IMG/VR virus record: IMGVR_UViG_3300009506_000292
Coordinates: 1-47,978 of that record
Direction: 5' to 3' (one strand)
DNA: 47,978 bases
Source of the DNA: a virus
This document shows positions 12,296 to 33,210 of this stretch, one piece after another. The notes beneath the pieces are model-generated. The model was given only the letters and a program-made list of their open reading frames with translations, did no database searches and had not been told where the DNA came from. Numbering within the stretch: the first letter of the stretch is position 1; every line of letters begins with the position of its first letter. Both the position numbers and the translations under genes were made by a program.

Positions 12296-12479
12296 GCCCG
12301 CCCTCTACCCCTGCCCCGCCATGAGCGCCCGCATCAGCGAGGAGCAATGCCGCATCAACCAGCGGGACGCGCGCCGGGGCCGGCCCAAGAAGAAATCCCA
12401 CGGCAAGCGGCCGGCGGAGCGCAACATGACCTGGCTCAAGGTCTGCCTGACCTGCCCGGGGATTCGGAGGCTGCCGTGA
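12288..12479 (+). CDS. Small cysteine-containing basic protein
   Basis: A 63-residue product from GTG 12288. A CPAM...EEQCRINQRDA segment near the N-terminus and VCLTCPG at the C-terminus give four cysteines suited to one zinc site, around a very basic middle (RRGRPKKKSHGKR). Similar SxEQCRxNQ segments occur in phage zinc proteins. It overlaps the XF1762-like gene by GTGA. Confidence 0.55.
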   Translation: MPEPALYPCPAMSARISEEQCRINQRDARRGRPKKKSHGKRPAERNMTWLKVCLTCPGIRRLP

Positions 12480-12979
12480 GGGGTCTTCATGTGATTCCGC
12501 TAACCCTCAAGGCCGCAAACGCATACGTCGATGAGTACCATCGGCATCACGGACAATTTCCTCCTGGTCTCGATTTCTTTCGAATCGGGAGCGTCACGGA
12601 CGAAGGTGATCTCGTCGGCGTGGCGATCGTCGCTCGCCCTCCGAATCGGAATAGCGACGATGGATTTACCTGCGAGGTCGTTCGCTGCGCCACGAACGGG
12701 CACCGCAACGCTTGTTCATTCCTCTATGCAGCCTGCGCGCGAATCGCTCGCGAGATGGGCTTCGAAAGGATCATCACTTACACGCTCGATGACGAATCGG
12801 GCGCTTCGATGCGCGCCCTCGGCTGGGATCTGAAGAAGACCGGAATCCAGAGCTGGTGGAGCAGCCATCAGACTTCTGGCAGAACGGTCAAGGCCCGCGA
12901 GCATTACCAGATGCGAAAATCCGCCTGGGAGAAGCGACTCGTGGGAGAAATGCCTCTCTTTAGGCGGGAGACCCGATGA
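12476..12979 (+). CDS. XF1762-like (GNAT-related) phage protein
   Basis: A 167-residue protein from GTG 12476. It follows the XF1762 family pattern: AANAYVDEYHRHHG near the start, VGVAIVARPPNR, then FTCEVVRCATNGHRNACSFL, a helix with ARIAREMGFERIITYTL, and a final RALGWDLKKTG...SWW segment. The family has a GNAT-like fold and is frequent in phages; its substrate is not known. All family hallmarks are intact. Confidence 0.7.
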   Translation: MRGLHVIPLTLKAANAYVDEYHRHHGQFPPGLDFFRIGSVTDEGDLVGVAIVARPPNRNSDDGFTCEVVRCATNGHRNACSFLYAACARIAREMGFERIITYTLDDESGASMRALGWDLKKTGIQSWWSSHQTSGRTVKAREHYQMRKSAWEKRLVGEMPLFRRETR

Positions 12980-13926: not shown

Positions 13927-14404
13927 GATCCATTGGAAAGAGAATCTAGCGAAGGTTCACAAGGTCGATCCCGACAAGGCGTGGGAGGAGATCCAGAAGG
14001 TTTGTGCTGCGAACGGCGGACTCGCCTCACCGCAGGCCATCGTCGATCACGCTCGGCCGAAGCGGAACCCGCTGCACAAGGCTTTCGAGTGGGACGATTC
14101 GAAGGCTGCGGAGGCATTCCGTAGGGATCAGGCGCGCAACCTCGTCGCCAACTTCACGCTTGTCTTTGAGGATGGGCGGAGCGCCCCGGCGATGGTGAAC
14201 GTGACGATCAACAAGCAGAGAGGATACAAGCCGACGCAGGAAGCACTCGACGACATGGATCTCCGTCGGCAAGTGCTGAAGCAGGCGCTCTCGCAACTAC
14301 TGAGTCTGGAGGCGCGTTATCGCAGTCTGACGGAGTTGGCTGGGATCTTCTCAGCCGTTCACGAGAAGGCGCGAGAGGTCGGAATCGAGCAAGCAGCCGC
14401 CTGA
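13919..14404 (+). CDS. Conserved partner protein, DNA/RNA-region unknown
   Basis: A 161-residue protein overlapping the RAMP-like gene by eight bases. The N-terminal 55 residues are helical and include a short helix-turn-helix-like unit ending in a PLHKAFEWDDSKAAEAFR signature that is widespread in phages next to the preceding family. The rest is two beta strands (NFTLVFEDGR, MVNVTINKQR) and a C-terminal helix bundle. The pairing suggests a joint role; the activity is unknown. Confidence 0.6.
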   Translation: MPEIHWKENLAKVHKVDPDKAWEEIQKVCAANGGLASPQAIVDHARPKRNPLHKAFEWDDSKAAEAFRRDQARNLVANFTLVFEDGRSAPAMVNVTINKQRGYKPTQEALDDMDLRRQVLKQALSQLLSLEARYRSLTELAGIFSAVHEKAREVGIEQAAA

Positions 14405-15035
14405 TGTCTTAGCTAAAGGGATGTTCGAGGATTGGATTGGCAGGACCGGGAGGGCTGGACGGGGAATCATGCGGCTTGTTCAGGAGCGAACCGGATCGGC
14501 AGGATGGGACGGGCAGTATGAGTCCCGGCGGGGAGTGTCACGCACCGGCAGGCGGGGTATGGCAGCGAATCGCGCGGAGCGGGCAGCAAGGATGTCTTCG
14601 GCGCGGCTGGGCAGGATTGGCACGGAGGCGAACGCCTGGGAAGGTCACGCCGTTTTGGGCGAGGCAGGGCAGGATAGGCTGGAACCGGAAGGACGCGGAA
14701 TCGTGCGAGCGGCTTGGACGGCTTGGCAGGATCGGATCTTCTAGGCATGGGCGGAGCGTTGCGGTGTGGAGCGGCAGCCACTCGCGGATCGGTTTGGATG
14801 GGCCGGAGGGGCTAGGTGTTGCCGGCAGCGGATCTACGGGAAAGGTCGGGCTCGGCAGGAACGGCAAGGCACTTCGTGGCGAGTCGGGGGTTGCGTTGGT
14901 TCTTCATGGTCTGGCAGGAGAGGCTGGGTGCGTGATGGCTGTCGGGTATGGAAAGGCAGGATTGGCGAGCATTGTCCTTACGCGGAGGAGATTGGCGGCG
15001 CATGAGATGGCGGAGCGAGGCACGGCAGGATCGAC
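14405..15035 (+). repeat. G-rich gene-free array of degenerate GGCAGGA motifs
   Basis: No convincing gene in about 630 bases. The plus strand is strongly G-over-C. GGCAGGA occurs at 14439, 14498, 14610, 14668, 14725, 14854, 14913, 14955 and 15024, often as GGCAGGATTGG or GGCAGGATCGG. Intervals are 59, 112, 58, 57, 129, 59, 42 and 69, so many are near 58 or twice it. Related copies lie at 13189-13240 upstream of the RAMP-like gene. Confidence 0.6.
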
Positions 15036-15065
15036 TTGACAAATCACTCCGATCTGCAATGATGG
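15036..15065 (+). promoter_or_regulatory. Strong sigma70-type promoter for replication genes
   Basis: A perfect TTGACA (15036-15041) and TATGAT (15060-15065) are separated by 18 bases. Transcription should start near 15072, just before a leader with two interlocking inverted repeats, and read into the replisome organizer gene. Confidence 0.7.
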
Positions 15066-15073
15066 GGGTCATG

Positions 15074-15158
15074 GGGACGCAGTGCGAAATGTTTGATTCC
15101 GGCCCGGTGAGTGCCTCGCCCTGCGTCCCCAAACGCAAAAGGTGCTCACCGGGCCGTT
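15074..15158 (+). promoter_or_regulatory. Leader with interlocked inverted repeats (possible pseudoknot)
   Basis: Arm A TGGGGACGCAG (15074-15084) pairs with A' CTGCGTCCCCA (15123-15133), 11 perfect pairs. Arm B CGGCCCGGTGAG (15102-15113) pairs with B' CTCACCGGGCCG (15147-15158), 12 perfect pairs. The order A-B-A'-B' allows an H-type pseudoknot or two mutually exclusive hairpins in the leader of the replication operon. A 34-codon frame (15073-15175) also spans it. Confidence 0.65.
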
Positions 15159-15181
15159 GTCGTTTCGGGGCCTAGAACGGG

Positions 15182-16051
15182 GTGGCGACCCAGCGTAAGA
15201 GGTACTTTAAGGTAGCAGATAAGGTGTTGAGAAAAGCGTGGTCTAACGATGAATTAGCGTCACTTGTTAGGCTGATGGCTTACCTCAATCAACGCTGGGC
15301 ACGAGACGATATTCCCCACGATGAGGCCGGCTATGCCGAGATCGGAATCAACGACCTGATGACGATATCGGGCAAACGTCGGCCCGACGTCGCGCGAACG
15401 TCGGCCGAACGTTGGCGAGACATCGCCGAGATGTCCGTCCAACATCGCGGCGACGTTACCGTGATCCTATGGCCTAAGTTCGCGGAATTCCAAGAGTTCC
15501 GTTCCCGAACTAGGGGCGATGACGACCCCTTAACTCCCCCCTCCGCGTCCGCGTCCGAAAACGCGTCCGAAACCAGTAAGAAGAAGAGTGCTCGCGCTCC
15601 GCGCTTCGCCATTTCTCCTGATGCTTATGAATGTGCCGATGTTTTGAAAGCGAGACTGAGAGACGTGCCGGGAGCGACGATCAGCCCCAGGGCTCGCGAG
15701 TCTTGGGCGGCTGAAATCTCTCGGCTGGTTCGCGAGGCTCCGGAACTCCATGCCAATGGCCGCGAGTGGAAAGCCGACATCATCGCAGGAGTCGAGTGGG
15801 CCCTGGGGCCAGAAAACCTCGGCCAGCCTTACGAGGTCGTCATCCGCAGCGGGAAGTCCCTGCGCGAGAAGTGGCCGAAGCTCAGGGCGGCGATGAACCG
15901 CAAGAAGCTGGCCCCTCCGAAATCGTTTGCCCAGCAGCAGGAAGACGAAACCTTCGATTGGCTGAGGAGAGTATCCGATGGAGCAGAAACCCGATCCCTT
16001 GGGGATGGCACTGGCGCTGCTGTTCGTCGCCTTCCCGACCGGGGTGACTGA
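15182..16051 (+). CDS. Phage replisome organizer / replication initiation protein
   Basis: A 289-residue protein from GTG 15182. The N-terminal 100 residues have the winged-helix arrangement of phage replisome organizers (KAWSNDELASLVRLMAYLNQ, then GINDLMTISGKRRPDVAR). A low-complexity linker of S, A, E and K (about 118-135) leads to a helical C-terminal domain with a terminal DETFDWLRR element. Such proteins bind the phage origin and recruit a helicase loader. The next gene starts inside its end in another frame. Confidence 0.65.
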   Translation: MATQRKRYFKVADKVLRKAWSNDELASLVRLMAYLNQRWARDDIPHDEAGYAEIGINDLMTISGKRRPDVARTSAERWRDIAEMSVQHRGDVTVILWPKFAEFQEFRSRTRGDDDPLTPPSASASENASETSKKKSARAPRFAISPDAYECADVLKARLRDVPGATISPRARESWAAEISRLVREAPELHANGREWKADIIAGVEWALGPENLGQPYEVVIRSGKSLREKWPKLRAAMNRKKLAPPKSFAQQQEDETFDWLRRVSDGAETRSLGDGTGAAVRRLPDRGD

Positions 16052-16388
16052 GGCGATCAAGTCGCTTTACTTCGGCGAGGTCAGCCGGCTCGGATTCGAC
16101 GCGGAGACCGTGACTGAGGCGGCCCAGCGCATCCTTCATACACGCGAGCAGCGAACTGTGCCTCCGCTTGCGGTCATCCTCGCTGCCTGTCGGGAGGTCC
16201 GATCGGAACGGATTCAGGAGAACGACGAGGCGCGTGCGATGTCGTATCTCGAGGCGCGCGATCTTGCGGAGCGTCGGCTGCGGCTCATCAATCAGCGGGC
16301 GTGGAAGAAGATTCCGATCACCGAGGAGAACATTGACCTGCACATCCGTCAGATGGAGCGTGAGGAAATGATCCGGGTCGTCGGCTAG
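15978..16388 (+). CDS. Helicase-loader-like replication protein
   Basis: A 136-residue helical protein overlapping the organizer gene by 74 bases. Its layout (LALLFVAFPTGVTEAIKSLY, a middle helix with ETVTEAAQRILHTREQRTVP, PPLAVILAACREV) resembles phage loaders and inhibitors of replicative helicase of the G40P gp39.5/DnaT kind, which read a short alpha bundle with a PTLAEI-like turn. With no phage helicase or polymerase in the genome, it would load the host helicase. The assignment rests on fold pattern and neighbour. Confidence 0.55.
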   Translation: MEQKPDPLGMALALLFVAFPTGVTEAIKSLYFGEVSRLGFDAETVTEAAQRILHTREQRTVPPLAVILAACREVRSERIQENDEARAMSYLEARDLAERRLRLINQRAWKKIPITEENIDLHIRQMEREEMIRVVG

Positions 16389-16420
16389 GCGCGCACCGGC
16401 TGGCGGATTGAGGGGGAGTG

Positions 16421-16702
16421 ATGGAGTTCAAGGTTGGGGATCGAGTGAAGTGGACTTCGCAGTCTGGTGGGTTCACAAGGACTAAGACAGGAGAAATCAT
16501 CTGTGTGGTGCATCCAGGAGAGCGGCCGTGCGGTTGGGCCAGGCGTTGTTTTACAGACGACTTCGCCCACCTGACAGAGCGTGGGTTCAGTCCGTCGAAG
16601 CTTGGCGGCGGTTTTAGCCGGAAGCACGAAAGTTACTTGGTGGCGGTCGGGGCAAAGCTGTACTGGCCGCGAGTGAAGCATTTGCGCTTGATTAACGACT
16701 GA
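16421..16702 (+). CDS. Small SH3/KOW-like hypothetical protein
   Basis: A 93-residue protein; ATG 16421 lies after GGGGGAG, favoured over the adjacent GTG 16418. The start FKVGDRVKWTSQSGG and following KTGEIICVV form a small beta barrel start, then a basic segment. No specific role. Confidence 0.6.
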   Translation: MEFKVGDRVKWTSQSGGFTRTKTGEIICVVHPGERPCGWARRCFTDDFAHLTERGFSPSKLGGGFSRKHESYLVAVGAKLYWPRVKHLRLIND

Positions 16703-29507: not shown

Positions 29508-29860
29508 TGCCCGAGAAGTATCCCGTCCGTTCCGCCCAGGTAGCACTCACAGGGAACACCTACGCGACGCTCGTCCCTGCTCCTCCGGCCCAGGTTTCCT
29601 ATTACATCATCAAGGTGTTCGGACAGAACAACGCGGGTGCCGCCAGGACTTTGCAGCTTGCGTTCAACAACGGTGGTACGCGAACGGTCGTCTGGGAGTC
29701 TGCATCGACTGCTGATGCGACGATGTTCGCTGGGTCTCTCGGAGCCGAGAACTTTCCGATCGACCTCGTGCTTGCAAATACCGACGAGTCGCTTGACATG
29801 CGTCTAGATGACACGGGCACGGATACGATCGTCTGTAGCTATGAAGTGAGGGAATCGTGA
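29507..29860 (+). CDS. Small beta-rich virion protein
   Basis: A 117-residue protein with one-base overlaps on both sides. It is all beta (QVALTGNTYATLVPAPPAQV; RTLQLAFNNGGTRTVVWE; TIVCSYEVRES). Its position between terL and the portal suggests a head-completion or decoration role; no family recognised. Confidence 0.6.
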   Translation: MPEKYPVRSAQVALTGNTYATLVPAPPAQVSYYIIKVFGQNNAGAARTLQLAFNNGGTRTVVWESASTADATMFAGSLGAENFPIDLVLANTDESLDMRLDDTGTDTIVCSYEVRES

Positions 29861-32800
29861 TGGCTGAAGAACGAGGCGATTTCACGGAAGACGGACTGAG
29901 AATCCGACGCACGCGGCGCTCCCTGCGAGGAATCGACAAGGCCAAGATCGCAGAGCGTGTTTGCAACTTCGCCACGCAGGATGAAGACGCGCGATCCGAG
30001 GAGCAGGCGCTCCGCCTCCAGCGGTACGCCAAGTTCCGCATGTGGGTTGCGGGAGACTCCGACTGGCCCTGGGCGGGCTCCTGTCTGTCTCTTGATACGG
30101 AAGTTCTTACCGAAACGGGCTGGAAACCAATTGGACAGGTATCAGTTGGAGAAGGTGTCTATTCTAGAAATGGAGCTGGAATAGCTCGGTACGAGCCTGT
30201 TGAAAAACGGACAGGACAGTTCTCTGATACAGCCGTCCATTTTATCGGAAAAAGCATAGACATTCTCGCCACTCCAAATCACAATATGCTTGTGGTAAAC
30301 GATTCTGGTGAGCACGAATTCATACAAGCGGAACGGTTCCTAAACGAGAAGCTAACGAACCGTTGGATTCCGTTGACATCGCTATGGGGCGGATCGAATT
30401 TTACCTCTATACATGGAATGAACCCAAAAGCATACGTGAGACTACTTGGCTGGTATATATCCGAAGGATATTCAAGCGGAGGAGGAACGGGATCGTTCGG
30501 TATCTCGCAATCCGAATCTGTTAATCCTGAAAAATATCGGATATTGGAAGAGGACATCGTAAATTCTGGAATCTCATATAAGACGTATGATAAGTTCATC
30601 ACATTACATGCCAGATCTATGCCGAAGAGTCTATCTGATGAGTTTAGATCATTGGGACGGTGCCACGAAAAGTATATACCTAGTCCCGTCCTTAGGTTTT
30701 CTAAACCTCTTCTAGTTGAGCTTCTTGATACATTGCTTCTTGGTGACGGACATACAACTGTCAGAGGAGCGACGAGTTATTATACAACTTCTGAAAAACT
30801 TGCAGGTCAGATTCAAGAGATAGCTCAAAAGATTGGAATAAGAGCGACGGTAATTGAAAACGCAGCATCTCGTGGTGGATACATCAAGAATCGATTGATT
30901 AGTGGCAAGCTGAAGTCTTACATCGTTCATCTGAACAGAAAGCCATTGTTGCAGGTAAAAAAGCTGAAAGTTGAACGAATAAATTTTACTGAACCTATCG
31001 AGTTTGCTTGCGTCAGTGTACCTCCCGCAAGAACGATCTATGTCAGAAGAAACGGAAAGGCCGTGTGGATTGGTAATTCCGACATCGGGATTCCCGACAT
31101 GATGACGGACGTGCTCGCCGTGGAGGATACGCTCCACAATGCGGTCATGAGCAATCGCCCGGTAGCAAACGCCCGCGCTCTCCAGACACACGATGTCGGG
31201 AAGCAAGACCTGATCGACGACCTTCTCGACACCCAGACGTTCATCGAGCAAAACGGGGAAAAGGCCGTCGAGGAGTCCGCCTCGTGCTTCGTCATGGACG
31301 GATGCTTTACGGCGTTCGTTCCGTGGGTACGGGAAGACAGGAGGATCGTCTCGTTCCGCACCTTCAAGAAGTTCGACGAGAACGAGGTTCCGCTCGTCCG
31401 CTTCGAGAAGATCATCAGGCAGGAGTTCCCGAAGAAGTACCAGACGAAGACGGACGAGCAAGGCTGGGACTGGGAGATCGAAGACCCGGATACCGGAGAG
31501 GTGTTCACGGTCAAGTTCTACACCGCGCGAGACGGCGAGATCGAGATGGTCTCCAAGCAGCGCGTCGAGATGTTCAACGGGCCGAAGATCATCGTCAAGG
31601 ACTTCGAGGATGTTCTGACCCCTCCGCGCACGGCGAACCTCCAGATACCGGGTCCGAGCAACCCAGGCGGTGCGATGCACGTCATCCTGCGCGACTCCGA
31701 CTGCCCGGTGGACGAGATCATTCGTCTCGCCAACTCAGGGTTCTACGACCTTATTTCCGATGACGACATCGAGAAGCTGAAGTCAATCAGCGAGTCGAAG
31801 GACGAGGATACGGAGAAGCGACAGAAGGACACGCTCCAAGGAAAGGAGCAGATCCAGCAGCCTGAAGACCCGATCCATCGAACCGTAACGCGCTACCTCT
31901 GCTTCGACATCTACGAGATGGAGAAGGGTGGAGACGCGCTCGACGTGATGTGGTGGGTGCTGAAGGAGCCGCAGATCCTTCTCAAGGCGAAGCCGTTGAC
32001 CGAGATGTACCCGTGCGAGCCTCCGCGCCGTCCGCTGGCCGAGGCGTCGTTCGTCCCCGTGAAGGGTCGGCGCGAGGGGATCGGGCTCCTCGAGATGATG
32101 GAGTCGATGCACGATCTGAAGAAGCAGATATTCGATCAGATGGTGGACGCAGGGACTCTTGGGAACCTCCCCTTCTGGTTCTACCGTCCGTCATCCAATA
32201 TCCAGCCCGAGACGATGAAGATGTGGCCTGGCGACGGGATGCCGCTAAACGACCCGAAGAACGACGTGTTCTTCCCGAATCTCAACACAGGCCAGGCGCA
32301 GTCGTTTGGGATCAACATCCTCACGCTGGCGGACCAGAAGCAGGAGAAGCTGACGGTGCGAGGGGATCTCCAGCTAGGTCGCGTCCCGATCGGTCGCTCT
32401 GCCGCTCTCCGCACCAGCCAGAACATGCAGAGCTTGATGTCGGCTGGCGAGGCTCGACCCGAGCGCATCCTGCGGCGCTTCATGATGGGATGGATCGAGA
32501 TCATGAAGCAGATGCACGAGCTGAACCAGCACTTCCTGCCCGAGCAGAAGAAGGGCATTCGGGAGCCGGGGGATGACCCCTACCGGGAGATCAGCTCCTC
32601 GGACGACATCGCGGGGCGCTTCAAGTTCGACTTCTCGGTCAACGTGATGAACGCCAGCAAGATCGCGTTGCAAGACTCTCTGGAGCGGCTGCTGGGTGTC
32701 TACGTGAATCCGTTGCTCATCCAGCTTGGAATCACGACGCCCGACACGATCTACCGGCTGGCGCGCGATTGGGGACGCGCCCACGGCCAGAAGCCCGAGC

Positions 32801-33210
32801 AGTACCTCAACAAGCCGTCCCCCGAGGCGATGCTGGCACCGATCCTCGCCGAGGAGGCCATCTCGGAGATCATGGCTGGCGAGCTTCCCGAGGGCCTCCC
32901 GATGGAAGGGGCGCAGGCGCATCTAGACAAGCTGATGACTTTCATGCAGTCGCCGCAGTTCGGATTTCTCGACCATCCCGACAAGGTGGCTCTCTTCCGA
33001 ACCTATCTGAGGAAGGTCTCGGAGCGGGTTCGGCTGGAGAAGCTGGCGTCGGCGGCTGGTCCGGGTGGGATGAACTCGAGGGGGGCATCCCAGACAGGCG
33101 CTCCGGGCCAGCCGCCCATGCTGGGTCCGCCACAGGTCCAGCCTAACGAGTTGCTGGATGAGACGATGCCGACAGCCGGCGGAGGGGCTAATACGGGGGC
33201 GATCCAATGA
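29860..33210 (+). CDS. Portal protein, interrupted by an intein
   Basis: A 1116-residue precursor from ATG 29860 (the adjacent GTG 29857 is in frame). Residues 75-406 are an intein; removal leaves about 784 residues. The junction is WPWAGS / SDIGIPD, a conserved portal-type segment near the N-terminus. The C-terminal part carries the usual SRR-type helices (LLEMMESMHDLKKQIFDQMV; GRSAALRTSQNMQSLMSAGE) of podovirus portals. It is the ring through which DNA is packaged and ejected. Splicing should be needed for assembly because the insert sits in a core segment. Confidence 0.8.
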   Translation: MAEERGDFTEDGLRIRRTRRSLRGIDKAKIAERVCNFATQDEDARSEEQALRLQRYAKFRMWVAGDSDWPWAGSCLSLDTEVLTETGWKPIGQVSVGEGVYSRNGAGIARYEPVEKRTGQFSDTAVHFIGKSIDILATPNHNMLVVNDSGEHEFIQAERFLNEKLTNRWIPLTSLWGGSNFTSIHGMNPKAYVRLLGWYISEGYSSGGGTGSFGISQSESVNPEKYRILEEDIVNSGISYKTYDKFITLHARSMPKSLSDEFRSLGRCHEKYIPSPVLRFSKPLLVELLDTLLLGDGHTTVRGATSYYTTSEKLAGQIQEIAQKIGIRATVIENAASRGGYIKNRLISGKLKSYIVHLNRKPLLQVKKLKVERINFTEPIEFACVSVPPARTIYVRRNGKAVWIGNSDIGIPDMMTDVLAVEDTLHNAVMSNRPVANARALQTHDVGKQDLIDDLLDTQTFIEQNGEKAVEESASCFVMDGCFTAFVPWVREDRRIVSFRTFKKFDENEVPLVRFEKIIRQEFPKKYQTKTDEQGWDWEIEDPDTGEVFTVKFYTARDGEIEMVSKQRVEMFNGPKIIVKDFEDVLTPPRTANLQIPGPSNPGGAMHVILRDSDCPVDEIIRLANSGFYDLISDDDIEKLKSISESKDEDTEKRQKDTLQGKEQIQQPEDPIHRTVTRYLCFDIYEMEKGGDALDVMWWVLKEPQILLKAKPLTEMYPCEPPRRPLAEASFVPVKGRREGIGLLEMMESMHDLKKQIFDQMVDAGTLGNLPFWFYRPSSNIQPETMKMWPGDGMPLNDPKNDVFFPNLNTGQAQSFGINILTLADQKQEKLTVRGDLQLGRVPIGRSAALRTSQNMQSLMSAGEARPERILRRFMMGWIEIMKQMHELNQHFLPEQKKGIREPGDDPYREISSSDDIAGRFKFDFSVNVMNASKIALQDSLERLLGVYVNPLLIQLGITTPDTIYRLARDWGRAHGQKPEQYLNKPSPEAMLAPILAEEAISEIMAGELPEGLPMEGAQAHLDKLMTFMQSPQFGFLDHPDKVALFRTYLRKVSERVRLEKLASAAGPGGMNSRGASQTGAPGQPPMLGPPQVQPNELLDETMPTAGGGANTGAIQ
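30082..31077 (+). mobile_element. Intein with LAGLIDADG homing endonuclease in the portal gene
   Basis: A 332-residue insert starting with Cys (CLSLDTEVLTETGWKPI). Block B is ATPNHNML (about 63-70). Two LAGLIDADG-type motifs are at LLGWYISEGY (from 121) and LLDTLLLGDGH (214-224). The C-terminal splicing block is RTIYVRRNGKAVWIGN with Asn332, followed by Ser as +1 residue. The usual penultimate His is Gly. The insert is visibly AT-richer and uses different codons from the portal, as expected for a recently acquired element. Confidence 0.85.

Follow-up and report, generated by a model that had tools for sequence, protein, structure and literature searches.

Interlocked inverted repeats in a phage replication-gene leader: a candidate 5'-terminal pseudoknot

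A pair of interlocked inverted repeats, arranged A-B-A'-B', occupies 85 bases (15072-15156) shortly before a replication gene in an uncultivated phage. We tentatively read them as a cis-acting 5'-terminal pseudoknot, or as a hairpin switch, that would limit translation of the replication gene. The window, that is, the whole stretch of DNA analyzed, is the whole of virus record IMGVR_UViG_3300009506_000292, 47,978 bases long. Its terminase has weak similarity to actinophage terminases, and an SU10-type portal and other structural genes are present. The features of the leader are as follows, all on the + strand.

15036-15063, +: predicted sigma-70-type promoter (TTGACA, 16-nt spacer, AATGAT, extended -10 TGC), with 10/12 consensus matches and TG before the second hexamer
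~15070-15071, +: predicted transcription start, judged by its spacing from the -10 hexamer; same place as an ATG
15071-15175, +: 34-codon open frame across the arms, considered non-coding by codon usage
15072-15087, +: arm A, 5' strand of stem 1 (stem A), TGGGGACGCAG T GCGA
15088-15099, +: loop L1, 12 nt, predicted from sequence and geometry to cross the deep groove of stem 2
15100-15116, +: arm B, 5' strand of stem 2 (stem B), CGGCCCGGTGAG TG CCT
15116-15131, +: arm A', 3' strand of stem 1, with no spacer after arm B
15132-15139, +: loop L3, 8 nt, AACGCAAA, predicted from sequence and geometry to cross the shallow groove of stem 1
15140-15156, +: arm B', 3' strand of stem 2, AGG TG CTCACCGGGCCG
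15157-15165, +: moderately T-rich stretch TTGTCGTTT 3' of stem 2, a weak terminator-like tail by its sequence
15157-15188, +: possible third hairpin over the GTG start (15157-15167 / 15178-15188), with many G-U pairs; predicted, and absent from some folds
15182-16051, +: replisome-organizer/DnaD-like replication gene, 289 aa, GTG start, weak Shine-Dalgarno

Promoter, interlocked arms and replication gene

The promoter hexamers are TTGACA (15036-15041) and AATGAT (15058-15063). The original prediction had described TTGACA-18-TATGAT; there is no TATGAT at 18-bp spacing, and what stands there is TTGACA-16-AATGAT, its -10 extended by TG. Two promoter-like sites occur in the region, against 0.4 expected. 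A start at ~15070-15071 would place arm A at the extreme 5' end of the mRNA, 1-2 bases after the start. On the - strand, a scan of 14300-16500 for promoters of the sigma-70 type found no such site. Directly 5' of the promoter is a 630-bp G-rich non-coding stretch (14405-15035; 44% G on the + strand) with a quasi-period of ~4.85 nt (autocorrelation peaks at 5, 10, 19, 24, 29, 34, 39, 44 and 58) and nine copies of GGCAGGA; a search for a relative of this stretch found none. The entire interval 14405-15181 looks non-coding from its sequence.

The open frame across the arms had been put forward as a possible leader peptide at 15073-15175. It begins at 15071, and its codon usage, -0.45 bits per codon, is not coding-like, real 34-codon pieces scoring 0.05 +/- 0.25 and wrong frames -0.29 +/- 0.23. 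Coding of this frame had also been named as a competing explanation of the arms; since its score falls below the wrong-frame average of real genes, coding constraint does not explain them. The frame stops at TAG (15173-15175), 6 nt 5' of the GTG at 15182 and in frame with the replication gene. Fusion of the small frame with the gene by read-through of this TAG was rejected, TAG being the ordinary stop of many genes here.

The arms themselves, with their A-B-A'-B' order and 11 and 12 perfect pairs, were confirmed from the sequence, and both stems proved longer than claimed. Stem A has 11 perfect pairs (15072-15082 / 15121-15131), one U-C mismatch and then 4 pairs; stem B has 12 perfect pairs (15100-15111 / 15145-15156), two G-U pairs and then 3 pairs. 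Arm B abuts arm A', and together with the 12 nt of L1 and the 8 nt of L3 this is classic H-type anatomy. Such pairs are rare. Of 7009 second-order Markov genomes, 5 (about 1 in 1,400) held an interlocked pair with a total of 23 bp or more, and 6 held one in which both stems had at least 11 bp; none of a separate 250 simulated genomes had an interlocked pair totalling 23 perfect pairs. The sole other such pair in the window is a weaker 9+11 that shares arm A. By stacking energy, the leader pair (-70.9 kcal/mol) is the strongest interlocked pair in ~0.7 Mb of fetched related phage DNA, both strands included, the runner-up elsewhere reaching -54.9 kcal/mol. On the - strand the same locus gives -61.8, weaker because stem B has A-C where the + strand has G-U. 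The + strand is thus favored because stem B carries G-U pairs, pointing to an RNA rather than a DNA structure.

The original prediction placed the leader just before the start of a replisome organizer, and so it lies: the GTG is at 15182. To judge by its sequence, this is a rare replisome-organizer/DnaD-like gene. The C-terminal part of its 289-aa product matches a DnaD-like helicase-loader family, phrog_2514 (9.4e-05), and the product has no significant Pfam family. Its Shine-Dalgarno interaction is -5.0 kcal/mol at 10-nt spacing, many operon neighbors having -8 to -11.6. Elsewhere in the record, 12347-12979 encodes a Mom-like DNA modification protein (phrog_1384, E 1.7e-27). The portal gene (29857-33210) has a LAGLIDADG domain at residues 288-349, before its SU10-portal match (406-990), and by sequence this insert is probably an intein; G+C is low at 30001-31000, in the portal-gene region.

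Folding of the leader RNA

The original prediction offered either an H-type pseudoknot or two exclusive hairpins. This is a fair reading of the arms, with stack sums and loop lengths favoring the pseudoknot. We assessed the pseudoknot by stacking-energy sums and an A-form geometry model. The stacks sum to -34.5 kcal/mol for stem A and -39.2 kcal/mol for stem B; set against the best nested fold (-42.9), a pseudoknot with both stems would be ~30 kcal/mol better before loop costs. In the A-form model L3 must span 38-40 Angstrom and L1 50-53 Angstrom, distances within reach of 8-9 nt and 12-13 nt, respectively, so that a coaxial H-type pseudoknot is sterically allowed. By stacking energy, then, the pseudoknot is predicted to outcompete either hairpin alone, and in this model A and B are not strictly exclusive but can coexist. 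Pseudoknots with stems longer than one turn form slowly. Both stems exceed one turn, and the hairpins may for this reason dominate. The nested fold surpasses shuffled sequences only mildly (z -1.96).

Stepwise folding of the growing transcript gives hairpin A (-31.6) once 15131 is transcribed. When B' is complete, the nested optimum becomes hairpin B (-42.9, fold to 15157), which has an inner TGCGT/ACGCA stem; within it the TGCGT of arm A' takes ACGCA (15133-15137) as an alternative partner. In the mechanism that we propose, RNA polymerase would start at ~15070-15071, making the element the 5' end of the replication-operon mRNA, and hairpin A-A' would form first, as soon as 15131 emerged. Once it emerged, B' would either pair with B, which lies in the hairpin A loop, so that a coaxial H-type pseudoknot results, or displace A and leave the larger hairpin B. 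Either way the folded 5' end would stop 25 nt before a GTG with a weak Shine-Dalgarno, and translation could be limited or gated there, possibly with feedback by the replication protein or by another phage or host RNA-binding protein. We infer that the leader could serve as a riboswitch, attenuator or autoregulatory site.

The rarity of the interlocked arms, their placement in a non-coding stretch directly at the predicted +1, the extension of both stems beyond their perfect cores and the greater strength of the + strand all support a 5'-terminal RNA structure. Translational gating is supported by a ribosome site weaker than those of many neighbors and by the tendency of the GTG to be paired, its bases being 8-15% unpaired when 15157-15300 is folded. 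A bolder form of the proposal seems unlikely: that the first ~86 nt are a giant H-type pseudoknot that switches replisome assembly, either autogenously or by sensing the host. It would be the second phage pseudoknot operator after that of T4 gene 32, would have evolved independently, and its stems would be long enough for folding-time switching.

The same folds could instead describe a transcription attenuator, which we think rather unlikely. Hairpin B (17 pairs) followed by TTGTCGTTT would be a conditional terminator, delayed or prevented by the earlier hairpin A, which shares A' and the B loop; a trans factor or ribosome would set the balance. Hairpin B is strong and G+C-rich, 6 of the next 9 bases are T, and completion of B' does shift the growing-transcript folds from A to B. 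However, the TTGTCGTTT tail is broken by G, C and G, the loop of hairpin B is 23 nt, and stems A and B can coexist as a pseudoknot and so would not be strictly exclusive. A scan for terminators around the leader, restricted to loops of 3-8 nt, found none, which counts against attenuation only for such short loops.

Sequence relatives and alternative explanations

Inside the replication gene, AACGTYGGC occurs three times and CGCGTCCGAAAA twice (15368-15416 and 15550-15572). We infer that these repeats may be candidate iterons of a lambda-O-like origin within the gene. Copies of them were looked for in the leader and none was found; their placement within the gene speaks against the leader being the DNA site of the replication protein. 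The leader partly resembles the gene start (score 17), but not significantly (p 0.17), and this was set aside. A further alternative, which we regard as doubtful, is that the arms act as DNA, as part of an origin or as a protein-binding site. They would form hairpins extruded from single-stranded DNA, or be bound as dyads by a dimer, in an origin that includes the upstream G-rich stretch and the iterons in the gene. The location at a replication gene, the 630-bp quasi-periodic G-rich stretch upstream and the iterons fit this proposal, and hairpin B is stable as DNA too. Two different interlocked dyads with arms ~4.5 turns apart would nevertheless be an unusual operator, the leader lacks iteron copies, and the G-U pairs of stem B are useful only in + strand RNA.

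Less probably, the element could be a 5'-terminal stabilizer against mRNA decay, or its first ~95 nt a separate, trans-acting phage small RNA. Arm A runs from nucleotide 2 of the predicted transcript, so that the 5' end would be buried in a helix, and a possible weak terminator comes next. Against this reading, exact matches to the rest of the phage genome, on both strands, never exceed 10 nt, and the Rfam covariance models gave no gathering-level match in the window; at a relaxed threshold, only unrelated chance matches to microRNAs and snoRNAs appeared.

Relatives of the replication protein were found only in viral contigs, where there are five (31-50% identity), and none was found in genomes. 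In all five the gene start is preceded by coding or unrelated sequence without such arms. Near and distant searches with the leader DNA against phages and plasmids gave no match or chance matches only. Neither the replication gene nor the leader was found in 42 terminase relatives, many of them fragments, and the leader was found in none of the relatives reached through the upstream gene or through the downstream gene. Of three short leader matches in terminase relatives, the two that were read both lie in unrelated coding-looking sequence and were discarded. For stem A, pattern scans of viral contigs returned nothing but unrelated chance stems; for stem B, seven loci fitted at the level of the pattern. 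An interlocked-stem match of similar geometry (L092) lies within a coding gene and was rejected as homology, and two other interlocked-stem leads (L088 and L077) showed nothing resembling a replication leader when read. None of the related records scanned showed this stem architecture in a replication leader.

Three side observations came from these records. One (L115:2471-2520) has two in-frame copies of the replication-gene start (GTGGCGACG ... GTGGCGACA) around a run of 10 G, either a duplication or an assembly flaw. In another (L054:3001-5124), the terminase covers 2124 nt for ~527 matched residues, its length suggesting an inserted element, possibly an intein. A third, a terminase relative (L082:7130-7233), carries several direct and inverted copies of TGATGCAGT.

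Several of these results count against a 5'-terminal RNA structure: the collections searched contain no homologous leader and hence no covariation, the five gene relatives lack the arms, the nested fold has a z of only -1.96, the presumed iterons lie in the gene (15375-15416) and not in the leader, and long stems knot slowly. Another alternative is chance, or a mutational by-product such as template-switch palindromes, with no function. The pair is missing from all detectable relatives, a similar pair arises in ~1 in 1,400 simulated genomes, and many genomes are scanned. We nevertheless hold this very unlikely, given two separate near-perfect interlocked stems that extend past their cores and lie exactly in a non-coding operon leader. 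Least probable of all is a leader peptide with translational coupling, with a leaderless start at the 5' AUG (15071), a stop at the TAG and a restart at the GTG, as in plasmid repY/repZ leaders: the ATG coincides with the predicted +1, and 6 nt separate the end of the frame from the GTG, with which it is in frame, but codon usage is below even wrong-frame averages, the frame is missing upstream of the gene relatives and a 15-pair helix has its base at the AUG.

Comparison with known leaders

If the preferred reading, a 5'-terminal pseudoknot or hairpin switch limiting translation, is true, a far larger and independently arisen 5' pseudoknot would mean that phage DNA-replication genes repeatedly gain such switches, and the leader would be a testable model for the co-transcriptional choice between hairpins and pseudoknot. 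Attenuator and antiterminator leaders likewise place alternative hairpins at an operon start; here, in contrast, no standard terminator was found among loops of 3-8 nt, and a pseudoknot can hold both stems at once.

In the rep leaders of IncI-alpha, IncL-M and IncB plasmids, the pseudoknot is a short long-range loop contact. The arms here are local and long. These repY-repZ leaders have a pseudoknot and a small frame before a replication initiator, an arrangement resembling the one predicted here; studies of them are listed among the references of PMC10724649. The small frame here lacks a coding signal, though its spacing would allow coupling, and no antisense sigma-70-like site was found at 14300-16500.

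The leader pseudoknot of T4 gene 32, a translational operator for a replication protein, is a precedent that supports a 5'-terminal RNA structure here (PMC535899, PMC3014915). The T4 element has a diverged version in RB69 and none in RB49 (PMC535899, PMC3014915), and absence from relatives is therefore compatible with function. Common to both is the A-B-A'-B' pseudoknot arrangement 5' of the start of a phage replication gene, here predicted from the arms. The T4 operator, however, is ~28 nt with short stems, whereas this element is 85 nt with stems of 15-17 pairs. In T4 an unstructured A+U-rich start region with UUAAA/UAAA repeats lies 3' of the pseudoknot; here 15157-15190 is G+C-rich and predicted to be structured. 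Moreover, the T4 operator controls a single-strand binding protein and not a replisome-organizer/DnaD-like (helicase-loader-like) product. By analogy, the leader quite possibly works like the T4 gene 32 operator, but it is not a member of that family, because it lacks an unstructured, A+U-rich start region and its gene does not encode the single-strand binding protein.
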